Positions 35,280 to 63,234 of a stretch of DNA of 64,000 nucleotides are shown here, piece by piece (positions within the stretch are counted from its first letter, which is position 1; the number at the start of each line of letters is the position of its first letter). Position numbers and translations under genes: made by a program. Source of the DNA: an uncultured Bacteroides sp. (GTDB lineage: Bacteria > Bacteroidota > Bacteroidia > Bacteroidales > Bacteroidaceae); contig CAMTPA010000003.1 in NCBI GenBank assembly GCA_947074275.1, positions 1-64,000 on the forward strand, written 5' to 3'. The notes under the pieces are model-generated. The model saw only the letters and a list, made by a program, of their open reading frames with translations, had not been told where the DNA came from and made no database searches.

Positions 35280-35383
35280 GCAACTCAGCCATTAGCAAAT
35301 AAACTCCATTTTATAAATGCAATTTTGATGATGTTTTCAAATGGATTGTGCTATTTTTGTGGCACAAAATAAAAAGGATACTA

Positions 35384-36250
35384 ATGAAACAATACGAAAT
35401 AGGCGGATGCCTCTGCACGATAAAAGGCGACGAACAAGTGGCTGGTGCAAACTATACCCCTTTTGAGCGAGATAACTCCACTGCAAACCCACTGTTTGAG
35501 CTTGATGTGAAACTCAACCAAACGCCCTCATCTATTGAAGAATGGAGTGAGGTGGACGAGTATGTGGATGAGAACAATCGCTTTGTGGCATATCAAAAAG
35601 AGGATAAGTTGCGATTGGTGGGCTATCTGCCAGGCAAACCACATCCCATATCGGTGGTGGAGTGCAACGAACGATTCAATCAGAATACGCTTTGGATTAT
35701 AGAGCCAAACTTCAAGCAAATGGCTTTCGACAACGCGATGATGCTTGTTTATGCTTGTGCGGGCGCATTGCGTCAAGACACGTTGCTCATTCACAGTTCG
35801 GTGGTGGTGCGCAATGAAAAAGCTTATCTGTTTTTGGGCAAAAGTGGCACGGGAAAAAGTACACACACGCGTCTTTGGCTCGAACATATCGCCCACACAC
35901 ACCGACTGAATGATGATAATCCCGTGATAAAGATAGAACACGATGAAGTAATCGTGTATGGTTCGCCTTGGAGCGGCAAAACTGCTTGCTACTTAGACGA
36001 ACATTACCCCGTAGGCGCATTCACTCGTTTGTGGCAAGCACCCGAAAACAAAATCAATCGTCTGAAAGGGGCGATGGCCTATGCTTCGTTGATGCCCACA
36101 GTGAGCACCCTTCCTTGCTCGGCAGCGGTGGGCGAAGGGGTAAGAAACGCACTCACCAAAGTGGTGGAGCACACGCCTGTTTTCCGTCTCGACTGCCTGC
36201 CCGATGAGGCCGCTGCACAATTATCGTTCAACACCCTCGCCGTGCAATGA
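35384..36250 (+). CDS. HPr kinase-like / PEPCK-like P-loop protein
   Basis: DTLLIHSSVVVRNEKAYLFLGKSGTGKSTHTRLWLEHI (Walker A), DDNPVIKIEHDEVIVYGSPWSGKT; start MKQYEIGGC. Confidence 0.8.
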   Translation: MKQYEIGGCLCTIKGDEQVAGANYTPFERDNSTANPLFELDVKLNQTPSSIEEWSEVDEYVDENNRFVAYQKEDKLRLVGYLPGKPHPISVVECNERFNQNTLWIIEPNFKQMAFDNAMMLVYACAGALRQDTLLIHSSVVVRNEKAYLFLGKSGTGKSTHTRLWLEHIAHTHRLNDDNPVIKIEHDEVIVYGSPWSGKTACYLDEHYPVGAFTRLWQAPENKINRLKGAMAYASLMPTVSTLPCSAAVGEGVRNALTKVVEHTPVFRLDCLPDEAAAQLSFNTLAVQ

Positions 36251-36690
36251 GAAGAGTGCTGATAGCCAACGATGTGATAGCCGAAGAGACAAAACGGCTG
36301 ATAGACGAAGGGCAAGAGGTGACTTTGCGCGTGAAAGGCAACAGCATGCTTCCCTTTATTCACGGCGATAAAGATATGGCGGTGCTTCGGTCGGTATCAA
36401 AGCCTCTAAGCAGGTGGGACATTGTGTTGGCCTACGACACACGTGGTGTGCTGGTGCTACATCGCATCATAAAGATAGAGGACAACGTGCTGACACTAAT
36501 GGGAGACGGCAACCTGAAAGGAGTGGAACAGTGCAAGCAAACCGATGTGATAGCCAAACTGGAAGCTGTGCAACGCGAAGAGCGGCGATGGGATTGCAAC
36601 ACGAGAAATGCACGGCTGAAAGCGGTGATATGGTTTCGCATTCGCCCACTGCGTCGCTATCTGCTGGGCGTATATCGCCGAATAATCTGA
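36247..36690 (+). CDS. S24/S26 (LexA/signal-peptidase-like) family protein
   Basis: EVTLRVKGNSMLPFIHGDKDMAVLRS...WDIVLAYDTRGVLVLHRIIKIEDNVLTLMGDGNLKG; ATGA overlap with upstream gene. Confidence 0.82.
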   Translation: MRRVLIANDVIAEETKRLIDEGQEVTLRVKGNSMLPFIHGDKDMAVLRSVSKPLSRWDIVLAYDTRGVLVLHRIIKIEDNVLTLMGDGNLKGVEQCKQTDVIAKLEAVQREERRWDCNTRNARLKAVIWFRIRPLRRYLLGVYRRII

Positions 36691-36722
36691 AGAAGTGATA
36701 ACCAATAATAATAAGAAAAACA

Positions 36723-36995
36723 ATGAAAGTAAAACCCGAATTTGAACTCCGCACCGTAGCAGGCGAAAATATTGTAGTAGCAACTGGCAAAGCTGCCACC
36801 AACTTTTCTCGTTTAATATCGCTCAATGATTCCGCCGCCTATCTGTGGCGCGAGGTGTCTGCTATGCCTGCTTTCGATGAGCAAACCATAGCACAACTAC
36901 TCACTCAGCGTTATGGCGTAGATATGCAAACGGCATTGGCTGATGGTGGCGAGCTGGTGCAAAACTGGTTGGACGCTGGCATCATCGAAGCGTAG
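36723..36995 (+). CDS. PqqD-like (RiPP recognition element-type) protein
   Basis: 90 aa; MKVKPEFELRTVAGENIVVATGKAATNFSRLISLNDSAAYLWREV...DEQTIAQLLTQRYGVDMQTALADGGELVQNWLDAGII. Confidence 0.82.
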   Translation: MKVKPEFELRTVAGENIVVATGKAATNFSRLISLNDSAAYLWREVSAMPAFDEQTIAQLLTQRYGVDMQTALADGGELVQNWLDAGIIEA

Positions 36996-38697
36996 CAATA
37001 TCTACCACCTTACTACATACCGACAATGCCTCGCTGCGATGAGAAATAACCACAATCGTCAAAGCGGGGCATTGCTGTTTGAGGTGTAGCAGCGCATCGT
37101 TGATGTTCTCTTGCGTATCTTCATCAAGCGACGATGTGGCTTCATCGAGTAACAATAGCTCTACATTGCGATACAGGGCACGTGCTATGCCCAATCGTTG
37201 ACGCTGTCCACCCGATAGCCTTGAGCCACCTTCGCCCACCTCGGTAGCCATCCCTTGTGGAAGAGTCTCTACAAAAGCAGTGAGCGATGCTAATTCCAAC
37301 ACCTTGTTTATGCGCTCATAGTCTACCTCTGCGCCCATCACAATGTTGTCTGTCAAAGTGCCGTTTATCATAAATAGCTGTTGCGATACATAGCCTATCT
37401 GTTTACACCACGACGATTGGTGTTCGGCAGAAAGTGGTGTATTGTCTATCATCACTCTGCCTTGCCACGGTTCAACAAAGCCCAAGAGCAGATAGAACAA
37501 AGTGCTTTTGCCCGAACCCGACTCTCCTTTGATGCCCAAGAAGTCGCCCCGCTCTATTTGTAGTGAGATGTTGGTTAGCACAGGCTTATTCTCTTCATAG
37601 CCAAAGGTGATGTTCTCTACCGATATATTTTGTTTAAAGCTGATGGGCTTGTCTGTTGTTTGGATGGTTTTGTCGTTCTGTTCTGCCTTCAATTCATCGA
37701 GCAAAGAGAGGGCGAACGAATTGCCTCGCATCGTGAAAATAGCATTCGAACTTTTCACCACTCCAGGCATCACCCGGTAGATAGCGATAGCGAATAGCCC
37801 CACCACCAAACCCAATGAAGGAAGTGATAACAACTGAGATGTAGCCACCAGCACCACCACCGAGCAGATTACAGTAAACTCCAACACTCGTTGCAGGGAG
37901 GCTTGTAGCGTGTTTCGTTTCGATGTAACTTTACCTTGTTCTATCAGAAGTTGCTCGTATTGCTTTGCGCTGTGACTGAACATCCCGCTAAGTGCCATAT
38001 CGCCATAGCCTATAAAAGTCTGTTGCAGAAGTTGTGTTTTCTGTGGATAGATGCTATAAAGACGTGTGCCATATTGACGAATGCGTTTTTGGGTGAGTTT
38101 GTAGTATATAAAAGAGACGGGCGCAAAAGTGAGCACCACCAAACCAAACACTTCAATGTTGTAAACCATCAGTGCAATCAATACCATCAATGTCACTACC
38201 CCCTCGCACAGCAAGGTGACGAAAGGTATGAAGTAGCCTTGTATCAGGTAGGTAGATGCTCCTTCTATCTTGTTAATCAGTTTATGGCTATTGTGTAGTT
38301 TCACAAATAAGAAGCCGCTGTTGTAGTATAACCGATAGAGACGGATGGACAAGTATTGCGATATATCGAACAAGGCACGGTTTTGATGATAATGGATGAA
38401 TGATGCAAGCAACAAACGCAGCAATGCTACCCCAAGCACCACGGCTAAAACTACGATGACAAATGAACGTGCGGAGGTAAATGCTCCAGCACTGTACAAA
38501 AGGCTCAAATAAGGGTTTTCGGTGATGTTGTTTTCGCTCAGCACCAACACCAAAAGCGGGAGCAGAATACTCACACCTACTACATCGAGCAGAATCATTG
38601 CAAATGTGTTGATGCCCGTAGCTATCAGTTTGCGGCGAAGTTTGCCCGGCAACACAGAGTATAGCAGGTGGATGGATTGAAATGTATTTTTCATCAA
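36982..38697 (-). CDS. ABC transporter, fused permease and ATPase (no C39 peptidase domain visible)
   Basis: GDFLGIKGESGSGKSTLFYLLLGF (Walker A), GEGGSRLSGGQRQRLGIARALYRNVELLLLDEATSSLDEDTQ; TM region N-terminal. Confidence 0.92.
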   Translation of the reverse strand: MMKNTFQSIHLLYSVLPGKLRRKLIATGINTFAMILLDVVGVSILLPLLVLVLSENNITENPYLSLLYSAGAFTSARSFVIVVLAVVLGVALLRLLLASFIHYHQNRALFDISQYLSIRLYRLYYNSGFLFVKLHNSHKLINKIEGASTYLIQGYFIPFVTLLCEGVVTLMVLIALMVYNIEVFGLVVLTFAPVSFIYYKLTQKRIRQYGTRLYSIYPQKTQLLQQTFIGYGDMALSGMFSHSAKQYEQLLIEQGKVTSKRNTLQASLQRVLEFTVICSVVVLVATSQLLSLPSLGLVVGLFAIAIYRVMPGVVKSSNAIFTMRGNSFALSLLDELKAEQNDKTIQTTDKPISFKQNISVENITFGYEENKPVLTNISLQIERGDFLGIKGESGSGKSTLFYLLLGFVEPWQGRVMIDNTPLSAEHQSSWCKQIGYVSQQLFMINGTLTDNIVMGAEVDYERINKVLELASLTAFVETLPQGMATEVGEGGSRLSGGQRQRLGIARALYRNVELLLLDEATSSLDEDTQENINDALLHLKQQCPALTIVVISHRSEALSVCSKVVDIATLR

Positions 38698-38786
38698 CAG
38701 AGGTGTTTTATGTATTTAGTTACACAAAGTTACTGTTTATCCCCCTTTATTTCACTATTTTTGTCGTACTAAAATTGCTTCTTAAT

Positions 38787-39890
38787 ATGAATAGAACCAC
38801 AAATACTACTTTGGAAAGCGCATTCTTTTCTTTGCTTCGTGCTGGTCTATGGGAAAATCATACGCCCGACCCTACTTTGTTTAATGAGGATACCAATTGG
38901 GAAACGCTGTTCGAAATAGCCAGACAACAAACAGTAGTGGGCATTGTGTGGGATGGTATCGCAAAGCTTCCTCCTGCGCTTCAACCGCCTCGCAACATCA
39001 AGTTCAATTGGTATTCGTTTGTGCTCAAGCTGGAGCAAACCAATCAGTTGATCAACGAGAATGTGGTGGAGCTAATCCAATTGTATCAACAAAACGGACT
39101 ACACCCCATCTTGCTTAAAGGAGCTGGAGTAGCCACGCTATACCCCAATCCGTTGCATCGAGGCTGTGGAGATATTGATATTTATGTAGGCAAAGCCGAT
39201 TATAAAAAGGCCAACGAGCTGGCTGCGTCTATTGGTTTTAGCATGGAGCACGAAACTCTTTATCACAGTGGTATGCAGCGTGGAGTAATTCATCTCGAAA
39301 ACCACAATAAGATGATTAATGCCTTTCTGCCTTATATGAAGCAGATGTTTGGAGAGCAGTTGGATGCTTGGTATCCTCACTCTTCTCATACAGTTTCTAT
39401 CAATGGTGTTGATGTTCCTGTTTCGCCTATCGAGTTTGATGTGCGTTATGTTTTCTGTCATCTCTACAAGCATTTTATGATTGGTGGAGTAGGGCTTAGA
39501 CAGCTATGCGATTGGGCTGTAATGCTCGATAAAGCCAAATTGAAAACGATGGATATTAAAGGTGGGATTGTTGCGTGGCAGTTTTTAGGTTTATTCTTAG
39601 TCGATTATTTAGGCTTGGAATCGGCTAAACTTCCCTATTACAACGATAGATACCTCAATAAAATGTTGAAAGCAAAGCAAATCATTATAGAAGAGGGAAA
39701 CTTTGGGGCTAAAAGCAAAAGCAGTCGCTCGGAAAGACCTCAGGGATATATTGCAGGAAAGTTGCACACTTTAAGTTACCTTGCTTCTCGATGGCCTAAG
39801 CAATTGCAGCTTCAGCCTGTTGAGGTTTTCAAGTACCTGTTCTTCTATCAGTTTGTTTCGGCCACTAAAGGAATCCTGAAAGGAAAGTAA
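38787..39890 (+). CDS. Nucleotidyltransferase family protein (NTP_transf_5 type)
   Basis: HPILLKGAGVATLYPNPLHRGCGDIDIYVGKADYKKANELAASIGF; FDVRYVFCHLYKHFMIGGVGLRQLCDWAVML; start MNRTTNTTLES. Confidence 0.85.
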   Translation: MNRTTNTTLESAFFSLLRAGLWENHTPDPTLFNEDTNWETLFEIARQQTVVGIVWDGIAKLPPALQPPRNIKFNWYSFVLKLEQTNQLINENVVELIQLYQQNGLHPILLKGAGVATLYPNPLHRGCGDIDIYVGKADYKKANELAASIGFSMEHETLYHSGMQRGVIHLENHNKMINAFLPYMKQMFGEQLDAWYPHSSHTVSINGVDVPVSPIEFDVRYVFCHLYKHFMIGGVGLRQLCDWAVMLDKAKLKTMDIKGGIVAWQFLGLFLVDYLGLESAKLPYYNDRYLNKMLKAKQIIIEEGNFGAKSKSSRSERPQGYIAGKLHTLSYLASRWPKQLQLQPVEVFKYLFFYQFVSATKGILKGK

Positions 39891-60954: not shown

Positions 60955-61210
60955 ATTGCGCGGCTTTTTTGTGCGCTTCGGTGTGTGGGGCTGATAGCTT
61001 TTGCACCCACCGTTTCAGTTATAGCAAATTTGCACGTTTTGCTTATTTTTTTTTGTTGTTAATAGTTGTTATGTCGGATAAAGTCGCTATTTTTATCGCA
61101 ACTGATTGAAAAACACCTTAAAACACAAACTTGTGATGGTGAAAATGTGGTTAGGTTATTGAAGAGTATATATGTATATATTAAATTCCATAAATAATTT
61201 ATTATATAAA

Positions 61211-62950
61211 ATGAAAACGAAGCAACTACTACACGCAGCCGCGGCGCTGCTGTTGCTTGGCACTGCCACAGGCTGCCAGCAAGAGTTTTTTGAAGAAAAC
61301 ACACCCTCGCAGGGGGCAATGAGAGAAATCACCATCCAAGCCTCGATGGGCGAACCGGGCGGAAACACAAGGGCTTCGATGACACCCGATGGCAGTGACA
61401 TCACAACCTCTACTTGGGTGTCGGCTTGGGAGAGTACGGATAAGCTCGGTGCTTGGGCAAGCGGCGAATCCTCCTTCTCGGAGTTCAGCATTGGCACATA
61501 TGACAACGATGCAAAAACCGCTTCGTTCACAGGGACGATACCTACCAGTGCGTCGCAACTACGCTTTGTGTACCCTTGGGACAATACAGCGAATGCGATA
61601 AGCACCAATAGCTATACGGTAGACATCAGCAGCCAGCAGTTCGATGCCACGGCTCCATTCTTGCACTACGGCAAAAACAAGCCGATGGTGAGCGACCTGA
61701 TGCCTGTGACAGATGACAACGTGGGCAGTGTGAAGCTGCGCAACCTCTGTGCCGGGATGGAGTACAAGTTAGCGTTCTCGGGGATGACAACAGGACAAGA
61801 CGTGCGTGTGCTCTACGTCGAAGTGGAGGGCATCAACAACAAGGGCACGCTCGATATGGCAAATGGCACACTGACCGAAACTGCCGGAGCTATCCGCATT
61901 GATGTTTCCAATTCGCCCCAAATGACCACGAGTAACTTCTCGGTGATTGGCGCGGTGTTCCCATTCAAAATAGCTGCTGCTACTGGCGTCCTCACCGTGA
62001 AGGTGATGACCAACTACGGTATGGTGCAGATAACTAAAACAAACACTGGTTCAGAGCTTGACTTCGGCATAGGCAAGCATCACAACATCAACCTGGATGT
62101 GGATATGAGCACGGTGGCGGCTTTTACCGAGTATTGGAAAGATTGTGCAGCAAATAGTTTTGATGCCGGAAACGGAGATTCGTCATCTCCTTACATCATC
62201 AAAACCCCCGAGCAGTTTGCCAAGCTTATAAATGATGTGAATGGCGGAAATGACTACACTGATAGCTACTTTGAACTGGGCAACGACATCGACCTGAGCG
62301 GCAAGCAATGGACGGCGATAGGGACAATCACCGAGACTTTCTCGGGCAGATTCGATGGAAAGGGCTATAAGGTTACGGGGCTGTATATAAACAAAAACGT
62401 TGGACTCCAAGGCTTGTTTGCCTTCTTGATTGGTGCCACTATCAAGAACCTGCACGTGTCGGGTTCGGTCACTACTACTAGATCTCAGGTTGTGGGCGGC
62501 ATCGTAGCAAGTCTGGAAGAACAGAGTAAAATTGAGGGATGCAGCTTCAGTGGGGTTGTTTCGGCTACTTATAGTTCTTATGGATTATATGTCGGTGGCA
62601 TCGTTGGTTCTTCTCATAGTACTTCTTCTATCACCTCTTGCTACAACACGGGGTCTGTGTCGGCTTCGGGTAGTGGCAGTACCTATGCTGGCGGCATATT
62701 GGGAAAGAGCGAAGGCGGCACAGTAAGCTATTGCTACTGCCTCAATGCTGTCGATGGTGGAACGAATACCGTGGTAGGCACTGGTACGGCTACAAATTCA
62801 GCCACCTTGAGCGATGCGCAGATGAAAGGAACAGAGACTTTCCAATATACTGGTGCTGGTGATAATGTGTATATGATAGATGAGCTGAAAAAAGGCGATG
62901 CCACCTACTGGCAAGCTCGTCCAGGCAATTATCCTTGGCTTGGCTTTTAG
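61211..62950 (+). CDS. Fimbrillin (Mfa/FimB-like) family lipoprotein with C-terminal GLUG-motif repeats
   Basis: LLLGTATGCQQEFFEE lipobox; fimbrillin-type RASMTPDGSDITTSTWVSAWESTDKLGAWASG...LRFVYPW; GLUG-like VGGIVGSSHSTSSITSCYNTGSVSASGSGSTYAGGILGKSEGGTVSYCYC. Confidence 0.88.
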   Translation: MKTKQLLHAAAALLLLGTATGCQQEFFEENTPSQGAMREITIQASMGEPGGNTRASMTPDGSDITTSTWVSAWESTDKLGAWASGESSFSEFSIGTYDNDAKTASFTGTIPTSASQLRFVYPWDNTANAISTNSYTVDISSQQFDATAPFLHYGKNKPMVSDLMPVTDDNVGSVKLRNLCAGMEYKLAFSGMTTGQDVRVLYVEVEGINNKGTLDMANGTLTETAGAIRIDVSNSPQMTTSNFSVIGAVFPFKIAAATGVLTVKVMTNYGMVQITKTNTGSELDFGIGKHHNINLDVDMSTVAAFTEYWKDCAANSFDAGNGDSSSPYIIKTPEQFAKLINDVNGGNDYTDSYFELGNDIDLSGKQWTAIGTITETFSGRFDGKGYKVTGLYINKNVGLQGLFAFLIGATIKNLHVSGSVTTTRSQVVGGIVASLEEQSKIEGCSFSGVVSATYSSYGLYVGGIVGSSHSTSSITSCYNTGSVSASGSGSTYAGGILGKSEGGTVSYCYCLNAVDGGTNTVVGTGTATNSATLSDAQMKGTETFQYTGAGDNVYMIDELKKGDATYWQARPGNYPWLGF

Positions 62951-63040: not shown

Positions 63041-63151
63041 ATGACGACAACAGAAACTTACGTGAAGCCCACCATCGAGGTGATACACCTGGAGCTGGAA
63101 GCCCCCGTGCTATCGGGTAGCAACCAAACCACCGGGACGGGCTGGGGATAG
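63041..63151 (+). CDS. Small ORF, 36 aa, absent from the supplied ORF track
   Basis: MTTTETYVKPTIEVIHLELEAPVLSGSNQTTGTGWG*, downstream of fimbrillin gene; YxxPxIEV...LSGS layout recurs in small Bacteroidales ORFs. Confidence 0.65.
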   Translation: MTTTETYVKPTIEVIHLELEAPVLSGSNQTTGTGWG

Positions 63152-63165
63152 ACGATATATCTTTC

Positions 63166-63189
63166 GCACCAACCAATTGATGATGAAGC
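63166..63189 (+). repeat. 24-bp direct repeat, copy 2
   Basis: gcaccaaccaattgatgatgaagc. Confidence 0.95.
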
Positions 63190-63234
63190 GGCGCAATGCT
63201 TCACCCTGCTTGTGTGGGGTGGGTGTTGCGCCGC
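63188..63234 (+). terminator. GC-rich hairpin overlapping the end of repeat copy 2
   Basis: GCGGCGCAA (63188-63196) pairs with TTGCGCCGC (63226-63234). Confidence 0.6.

Follow-up and report, generated by a model that had tools for sequence, protein, structure and literature searches.

The 36-residue open reading frame (ORF) at positions 63041-63151 of the window, the whole 64-kb stretch of DNA analysed here, is probably a RiPP-type precursor of a pathway resembling that of the linear polyphosphorylated peptides (LPPs), supplied in trans to a modification cluster centred on PqqD and located 24-26 kb away. The ORF belongs to a conserved peptide family whose members co-occur with PqqD, are linked to it in several genomes, and are paired with or fused to lipoproteins. 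The initial annotation had put the ORF forward as a candidate trans substrate of this cluster, and the proposal is well supported by co-occurrence, genomic linkage and operonic precursors.

The small gene and its peptide family

The ORF and its YxxPxI element were found exactly as first described, and no other ORF of this motif kind occurs within the window. The features of the small gene are the following.

63041..63151, + strand: precursor-like peptide of 36 aa, MTTTETYVKPTIEVIHLELEAPVLSGSNQTTGTGWG (ORF reading and homology)
63059..63076, + strand: putative binding motif for the RiPP recognition element (RRE; PqqD), Y7-V-K-P10-T-I12 of the leader (family conservation; motif common to LPP and lasso leaders)
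63113..63121, + strand: S25-G-S27, conserved Ser position just past the leader and proposed zone of phosphorylation and cleavage (Ser in 86/87 members)
63122..63148, + strand: hypervariable tail NQTTGTGWG, proposed core (tail versus leader identity)
63188-63234, + strand: strong hairpin 3' of the ORF, probable transcript end (z = -3.4; no good T run)

Scans of the peptide against Pfam and NCBIfam returned no match. Thirty dinucleotide shuffles of the window yielded two motif-bearing short ORFs in total (0.07 per window), so the YxxP motif alone is mildly unlikely by chance and counts as weak evidence. Counted genome-wide, as the initial annotation had suggested, such small ORFs number six in the source genome (G000; 3.3 Mb, 161 contigs, 93% complete), the window ORF included, and the paralogue on contig C1 (MKTKIRYVKPTIEVITIELEASVLSGSNQSSGTGWG) is 74% identical to it. 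Compared with its nearest homologue outside this genome (in G152), the window ORF differs over residues Y7-S27 at eight codons synonymously and at three non-synonymously, as expected of a translated peptide under constraint. An untranslated chance ORF would fit the very short length and the rate at which such motifs arise in shuffled DNA, but it is contradicted by dozens of homologues, the purifying pattern and the conserved neighbours. This explanation is refuted in practice and retains a negligible probability. Since homologues exist, five further ones in the same genome among them, the reality of the ORF is regarded as settled and, judged from its sequence, 63041-63151 is almost certainly a coding gene.

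Because searching 61 genomes with a single sequence lacked sensitivity, 93 family members, 87 of them non-redundant, were collected with profiles (A1, A2). The members are 35-75 aa long and widespread in Bacteroidales. Their consensus (87 members) reads Y-x-x-P-x-[IV]-E-V-[IL]-E-x-E-x-E-x-x-[IFL]-[AL]-x-S and is followed by a hypervariable tail, 8-47 residues long, in which Gly, Asp, Ser, Glu and Asn are abundant and an aromatic residue often stands near the end. Mean pairwise identity is 0.40 for the leaders and 0.10 for the tails. The Y and P are invariant among the 87 members, an invariance that is partly by construction, as the pattern used to pick members fixes the P and an aromatic residue; the third motif position is I or V in 76%. 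In 86/87 members, a Ser is found 18-20 residues C-terminal to the Tyr, compared with 29% of equally long tail windows, a contrast somewhat inflated by the presence of these positions in the member-finding profile and pattern. The earlier suggestion that Ser phosphorylation is conceivable thus holds up, given a Ser just after the leader in nearly every member.

Two tail subgroups were also observed. In several Bacteroides genomes (L034-L036, L047, L082:16211, L105:16433, L112:9517, L199), longer tails end in a second conserved motif, S-x-L-E-D-x-I-N-D-I-L-T, which is absent from window-type members. In other Bacteroidales families (L123, L131, L141, L144, L150, L151), tails end in YRSNLWGDDED or similar; this subgroup is present in many copies per genome, 3' of large proteins.

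The modification cluster and its co-occurrence with the family

Pfam and NCBIfam matches confirm the PqqD/HprK-like/nucleotidyltransferase/ABC cluster that had been described about 24 kb from the ORF without a local precursor. Located at 35348-39890, it has no family member beside it within the 64-kb window. Its genes are listed below.

35348..36250, + strand: HprK-like kinase that probably starts at ATG 35385; candidate enzyme for Ser phosphorylation of the peptide (P-loop and N188-D189-D190)
36247..36690, + strand: S24/S26 signal-peptidase-like protease, proposed leader peptidase (triad Ser33/His72/Asp87)
36723..36995, + strand: discrete PqqD/RRE protein (Pfam PF05402, 6.8e-12; model pLDDT 91.5)
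36982..38697, - strand: MsbA/PglK-like ABC exporter (Pfam/NCBIfam)
38682..39890, + strand: NTP_transf_5 nucleotidyltransferase (PF14907, 1.7e-43)

The catalytic residues of the cluster are conserved. The P-loop and N188-D189-D190 of the kinase were retained in 53 homologues, and D164 and D166 of the nucleotidyltransferase are invariant in its homologues. In the S24/S26 protein, Ser33, His72 and Asp87 are invariant in 51 homologues and resemble the triad of archaeal/ER-type signal peptidases and of LppS (S29/H68/D93). Fold matches did not separate LexA/UmuD from signal peptidase, and the protein is assigned to the signal-peptidase type because its Ser-His-Asp residues are invariant. The PqqD model adopts the three-strand winged-helix RRE fold, and among solved structures it is nearest to two lasso RREs with bound leader peptides, TbiB1 and TfuB1. 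Residues N35 and D74 of PqqD are invariant in 24 homologues. In LppB, D70 hydrogen-bonds the leader Tyr (PMC13381572), and D74 is suspected to be its counterpart. A reduced cluster of HprK, S24 and PqqD only was seen in Prevotella amnii (L180) and Prevotella bivia (L182); the surroundings lack an NTP transferase or ABC gene, and precursor-like ORFs occur elsewhere in the genome.

Phylogenetic co-occurrence of the small ORFs with the cluster, named in the initial annotation as a check, proved strongly positive. Of 151 genus genomes, the small ORF is present in 57 (called at E <= 0.1; 50 of these at E <= 0.01), PqqD in 69 and both in 52. PqqD is present in 52/57 genomes with the ORF and in 17/94 without it (Fisher 8e-20, a value that ignores kinship); when restricted to genomes at least 90% complete, the counts are 27/29 and 7/61. 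The same relation was found in 295 Bacteroidales genomes spanning many families, with PqqD in 14/17 genomes with the small ORF and in 35/278 without it (p = 1e-9, likewise calculated without reference to the tree). When only strong PqqD matches were counted in this sample, the small ORF was present in 12/18 PqqD genomes. Relatives picked by PqqD alone, including Prevotella bivia DSM 20514 and P. amnii DSM 23384, hold family members in 14/14 cases, with up to 14 per genome. Exceptions occur in both directions: PqqD was not detected in seven genomes with the small ORF (G127, G131, G144, G163, G314, G387 and G441, several of them incomplete), and the small ORF was not detected in about a dozen genomes with PqqD. 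When exceptions were re-examined, G130 turned out to have PqqD, and five further genomes with PqqD turned out to have members.

The family is also linked to the cluster physically. In 18/52 genus genomes, pqqD has a family member within 10 kb, whereas about one such genome would be expected. At three loci from separate lineages the precursor is within or adjoining the PqqD operon. In L115, the gene order is HprK-S24-PqqD-NT-ABC-small-lipoprotein-small-lipoprotein; in L096, the precursor is in or beside a PqqD operon that lies inside an exopolysaccharide operon; and in L255, from another family, the small ORF is 38 bp before hprK. The family is very probably tied in function to the PqqD cluster.

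Lipoprotein partners and leader fusions

The small gene also has a near-constant neighbour, represented in the window by the following feature.

61172..62950, + strand: partner lipoprotein of 592 aa, fimbrillin-like (Mfa_like_1) with GLUG, 90 bp upstream of the peptide gene

The Mfa_like_1 match of this protein falls below the curated cut-off; the protein also has GLUG matches. The C1 paralogue is likewise 37 bp 3' of a homologous lipoprotein of 949 aa, and the two lipoproteins share 44% identity across a stretch of about 520 residues. An adjacent lipoprotein gene on the same strand was found for 29/35 members with well-covered flanks, compared with a lipoprotein background of 20%. Two more of these 35 have a neighbour that is lipoprotein-like by eye and was overlooked by the heuristic. 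The partners carry Mfa_like_1, GLUG, BspA-type leucine-rich repeats, a Mac-1 match or no known domain. Mfa_like_1 is also the domain of the Mfa/FimA fimbrillin operons of Bacteroidales; fim/mfa operons are not known to include such a 36-aa protein. The small ORF forms a unit with its neighbouring lipoprotein gene rather than being an isolated orphan.

Two partners have further characteristics. The partner lipoprotein at L115:11769-13325 matches Pfam Mac-1 (PF09028) in addition to Mfa_like_1. One member of the source genome (G000:C27:15451-15576; L009:8449-8586) lies 7 bp 3' of a secreted protein of 1483 aa that is alpha-amylase-like, rather than a fimbrillin-like lipoprotein.

The small ORF is located just upstream of the lipoprotein gene in 27/35 loci, an arrangement that would also be expected of an attenuator or regulatory leader peptide controlling the lipoprotein gene. 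In the window and at the C1 paralogue, however, the ORF is downstream, and the window ORF is followed by a hairpin. Its protein sequence is conserved with synonymous changes, and in some genomes the peptide is fused into a protein. A regulatory leader peptide is therefore very unlikely.

In three genomes the leader is fused in-frame to the N-terminus of a fimbrillin-like pre-lipoprotein, directly before the lipoprotein signal sequence, as in MKQKSPYQAPSIDLLKMEGEGVIAASTQDFGAGKRYDLGQ...LPLVAALWLLPAC. The fusion loci are the following.

L228, L232, L234-L238: seven copies in genome G088
L229/L240: genome G019
L241: genome G154

The PqqD cluster is carried by G088 and G019, and G154 is absent from the PqqD matches. 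In G163, G027 and G140, the small ORF shares its reading frame with the lipoprotein gene, and a stop codon separates the two. Of the evidence that peptide and lipoprotein act in one process, the natural fusions are the strongest. Since the lipoprotein signal peptide comes directly after the leader, LspA would remove the modified part in the fusions, and a peptide that stays on the lipoprotein is therefore hard to reconcile with this layout.

The same observations could be read as those of an accessory to the surface lipoprotein only, such as a cytoplasmic factor for assembly or secretion, or a partner in translation, with the YxxP motif and PqqD co-occurrence resulting from a common accessory gene pool. 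Adjacency to lipoproteins is as consistent as co-occurrence with PqqD, fusions to pre-lipoproteins exist, and in a few genomes with members PqqD was not detected. Against this, no residues of the family are better conserved than the Y and P of the RRE motif, the PqqD operon contains or adjoins a member in three separate lineages, and PqqD predicts the presence of members even across Bacteroidales families. A purely accessory function is accordingly unlikely, and it is not mutually exclusive with the preferred reading of the peptide as a substrate of the PqqD cluster.

Relation to known systems and proposed pathway

The closest known system is that of the LPPs, not lasso peptides. LPPs were described in Bacillota from the lppA-K-B-S-D-N genes of Paenibacillus alginolyticus (Popov et al., 2026; PMC13381572). 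No other LPP pathway has been characterised, and LPPs were stated in May 2026 to be restricted to Bacillota, with the function of their products unknown (PMC13381572). With the same five genes, phosphorylation of core Ser3 and cleavage of the leader by an SpI-like protease have been demonstrated experimentally (PMC13381572). The window cluster includes the complete LPP core set, namely an HprK-like kinase, a discrete RRE, an SpI-like Ser-His-Asp protease, an MsbA-like ABC protein and an NTP transferase. The LPP system requires neither a macrolactam cyclase nor a B2 protein, and the source genome yielded no B2 match above the cut-off and, apart from a housekeeping-sized AsnB, no cyclase candidate. 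LPP precursors resemble the present family in having 35-200 aa, a YxxPxV leader and a variable C-terminus, and a conserved Ser follows the Tyr by 18 residues in LPPs and by 19 or 20 here. LPP clusters frequently occur in a capsule/EPS context (PMC13381572), and several of the present loci are within exopolysaccharide operons.

The two systems also differ. LPP precursors carry YxxPxVLxHQxIxFET, are cut, and continue with xxS (PMC13381572). The Bacteroidales leader has EV[IL]ExExE...[FI][AL]xS where LPPs have VLxHQxIxFETxxS, and VLxHQxIxFET is absent here; because the leader past YxxPx[IV] differs, the LPP cleavage site is not transferable. For an LPP, the precursor is expected in or near the cluster; the window ORF is 26 kb from it, and homologues are near the cluster in 18 genus genomes and in L115, L096 and L255. 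The present system has a Bacteroidota host, many dispersed precursors per genome and a near-constant pairing with fimbrillin-like lipoproteins, with occasional fusion. A pattern search for LPP-type precursors at six Bacillota loci found none. The Bacteroidales system is best described as LPP-like rather than as a proven LPP system, because gene content, YxxPx[IV] and Ser distance match while the rest of the leader consensus does not, and the chemistry is presumed.

The initial annotation had taken a lasso leader as its template, citing a paeninodin leader given there as starting YSKPSLEV. The YxxPx motif is indeed common to LPP and lasso leaders, although paeninodin-type leaders mostly have WxxP rather than YxxP (PMC13381572), and it is the LPPs that form the closest system. 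Phosphorylated lasso peptides of the paeninodin and Bsf type have in common with the window a discrete B1/RRE, an HprK kinase, an NTP transferase, an ABC protein and a [Y/W]xxPx leader motif. A lasso precursor acted on in trans would thus agree with the YxxPx[IL] leader, with the similarity of the PqqD fold to TbiB1 and TfuB1, and with the HprK/NT/ABC set also found in paeninodin-like clusters (PMC13381572). However, no B2 transglutaminase-like leader peptidase scored above the PF13471 cut-off in the source genome, where, besides marginal matches, the sole strong Asn_synthase match is a housekeeping-sized AsnB-type frame of 568 aa on another contig. No cyclase was seen in the clusters inspected, and the tail GSNQTTGTGWG contains no Asp or Glu that could serve as ring acceptor at core position 7-9. 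The lasso reading is largely refuted by the lack of B2, cyclase and acceptor and is scarcely credible; the earlier judgement that the ORF is unlikely to encode a lasso core was sound.

PqqD, HprK-like and ABC genes are also shared with radical-SAM RiPP loci that have a stand-alone PqqD, such as L189 of Intestinibacter bartlettii, where a nearby ORF begins MKREYSSPVMEVEIFEASEY with a leader resembling this family. Loci of this type contain a probable radical SAM enzyme, and the window cluster has none. L188 is similar to L189: it too has PqqD/HprK/ABC and a probable radical SAM gene, together with ORFs that begin MKREYSSPVMEVEIFEASEY. Literature searches returned no report of the family in Bacteroidota, and no such cluster appeared in the passages that keywords retrieved from a Bacteroidales RiPP survey (PMC10352776).

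For the LPP-like pathway, the following sequence of events is proposed. Residues 1 to about 24 would form the leader, and docking of its YxxPxI element on the PqqD/RRE protein is likely. The HprK-like kinase would then phosphorylate the conserved Ser at the junction of leader and tail (S25 or S27), a step favoured with moderate confidence. Cleavage of the leader near S25/S27 by the Ser-His-Asp S24/S26 protease is considered slightly more probable than its absence. Decoration of the phosphate may fall to the NTP transferase, and the ABC protein would export a linear peptide of about 10 residues. That the product works together with the fimbrillin-like surface lipoprotein encoded beside it, being co-displayed with it or controlling its maturation, for instance, is likewise favoured with moderate confidence.

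New here are the Bacteroidota host, the different leader consensus, the many dispersed precursors, the lipoprotein pairing and the leader-lipoprotein fusions in three genomes. More tentatively, these characteristics may reflect a Bacteroidales peptide-modification pathway dedicated to surface lipoproteins. Leader-bearing mini-precursors, each with its own adhesin-like lipoprotein and sometimes fused to the pre-lipoprotein N-terminus, would be served in trans by one RRE-kinase-protease set, and modification or cleavage would gate or accompany lipoprotein display. If so, the RiPP-type machinery would not make a free natural product but would act on secreted structural proteins or on their behalf. 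The family would account for a class of tiny unannotated ORFs in Prevotella and Bacteroides, and the long-unexplained HprK/PqqD/NTP_transf_5 gene set becomes testable in a defined background. The LPP-type class of modified peptides would be extended from Bacillota to Bacteroidales, with a suggested link to the cell surface. This second branch, very common in gut and vaginal Bacteroidales, would provide a concrete handle on what such peptides do.
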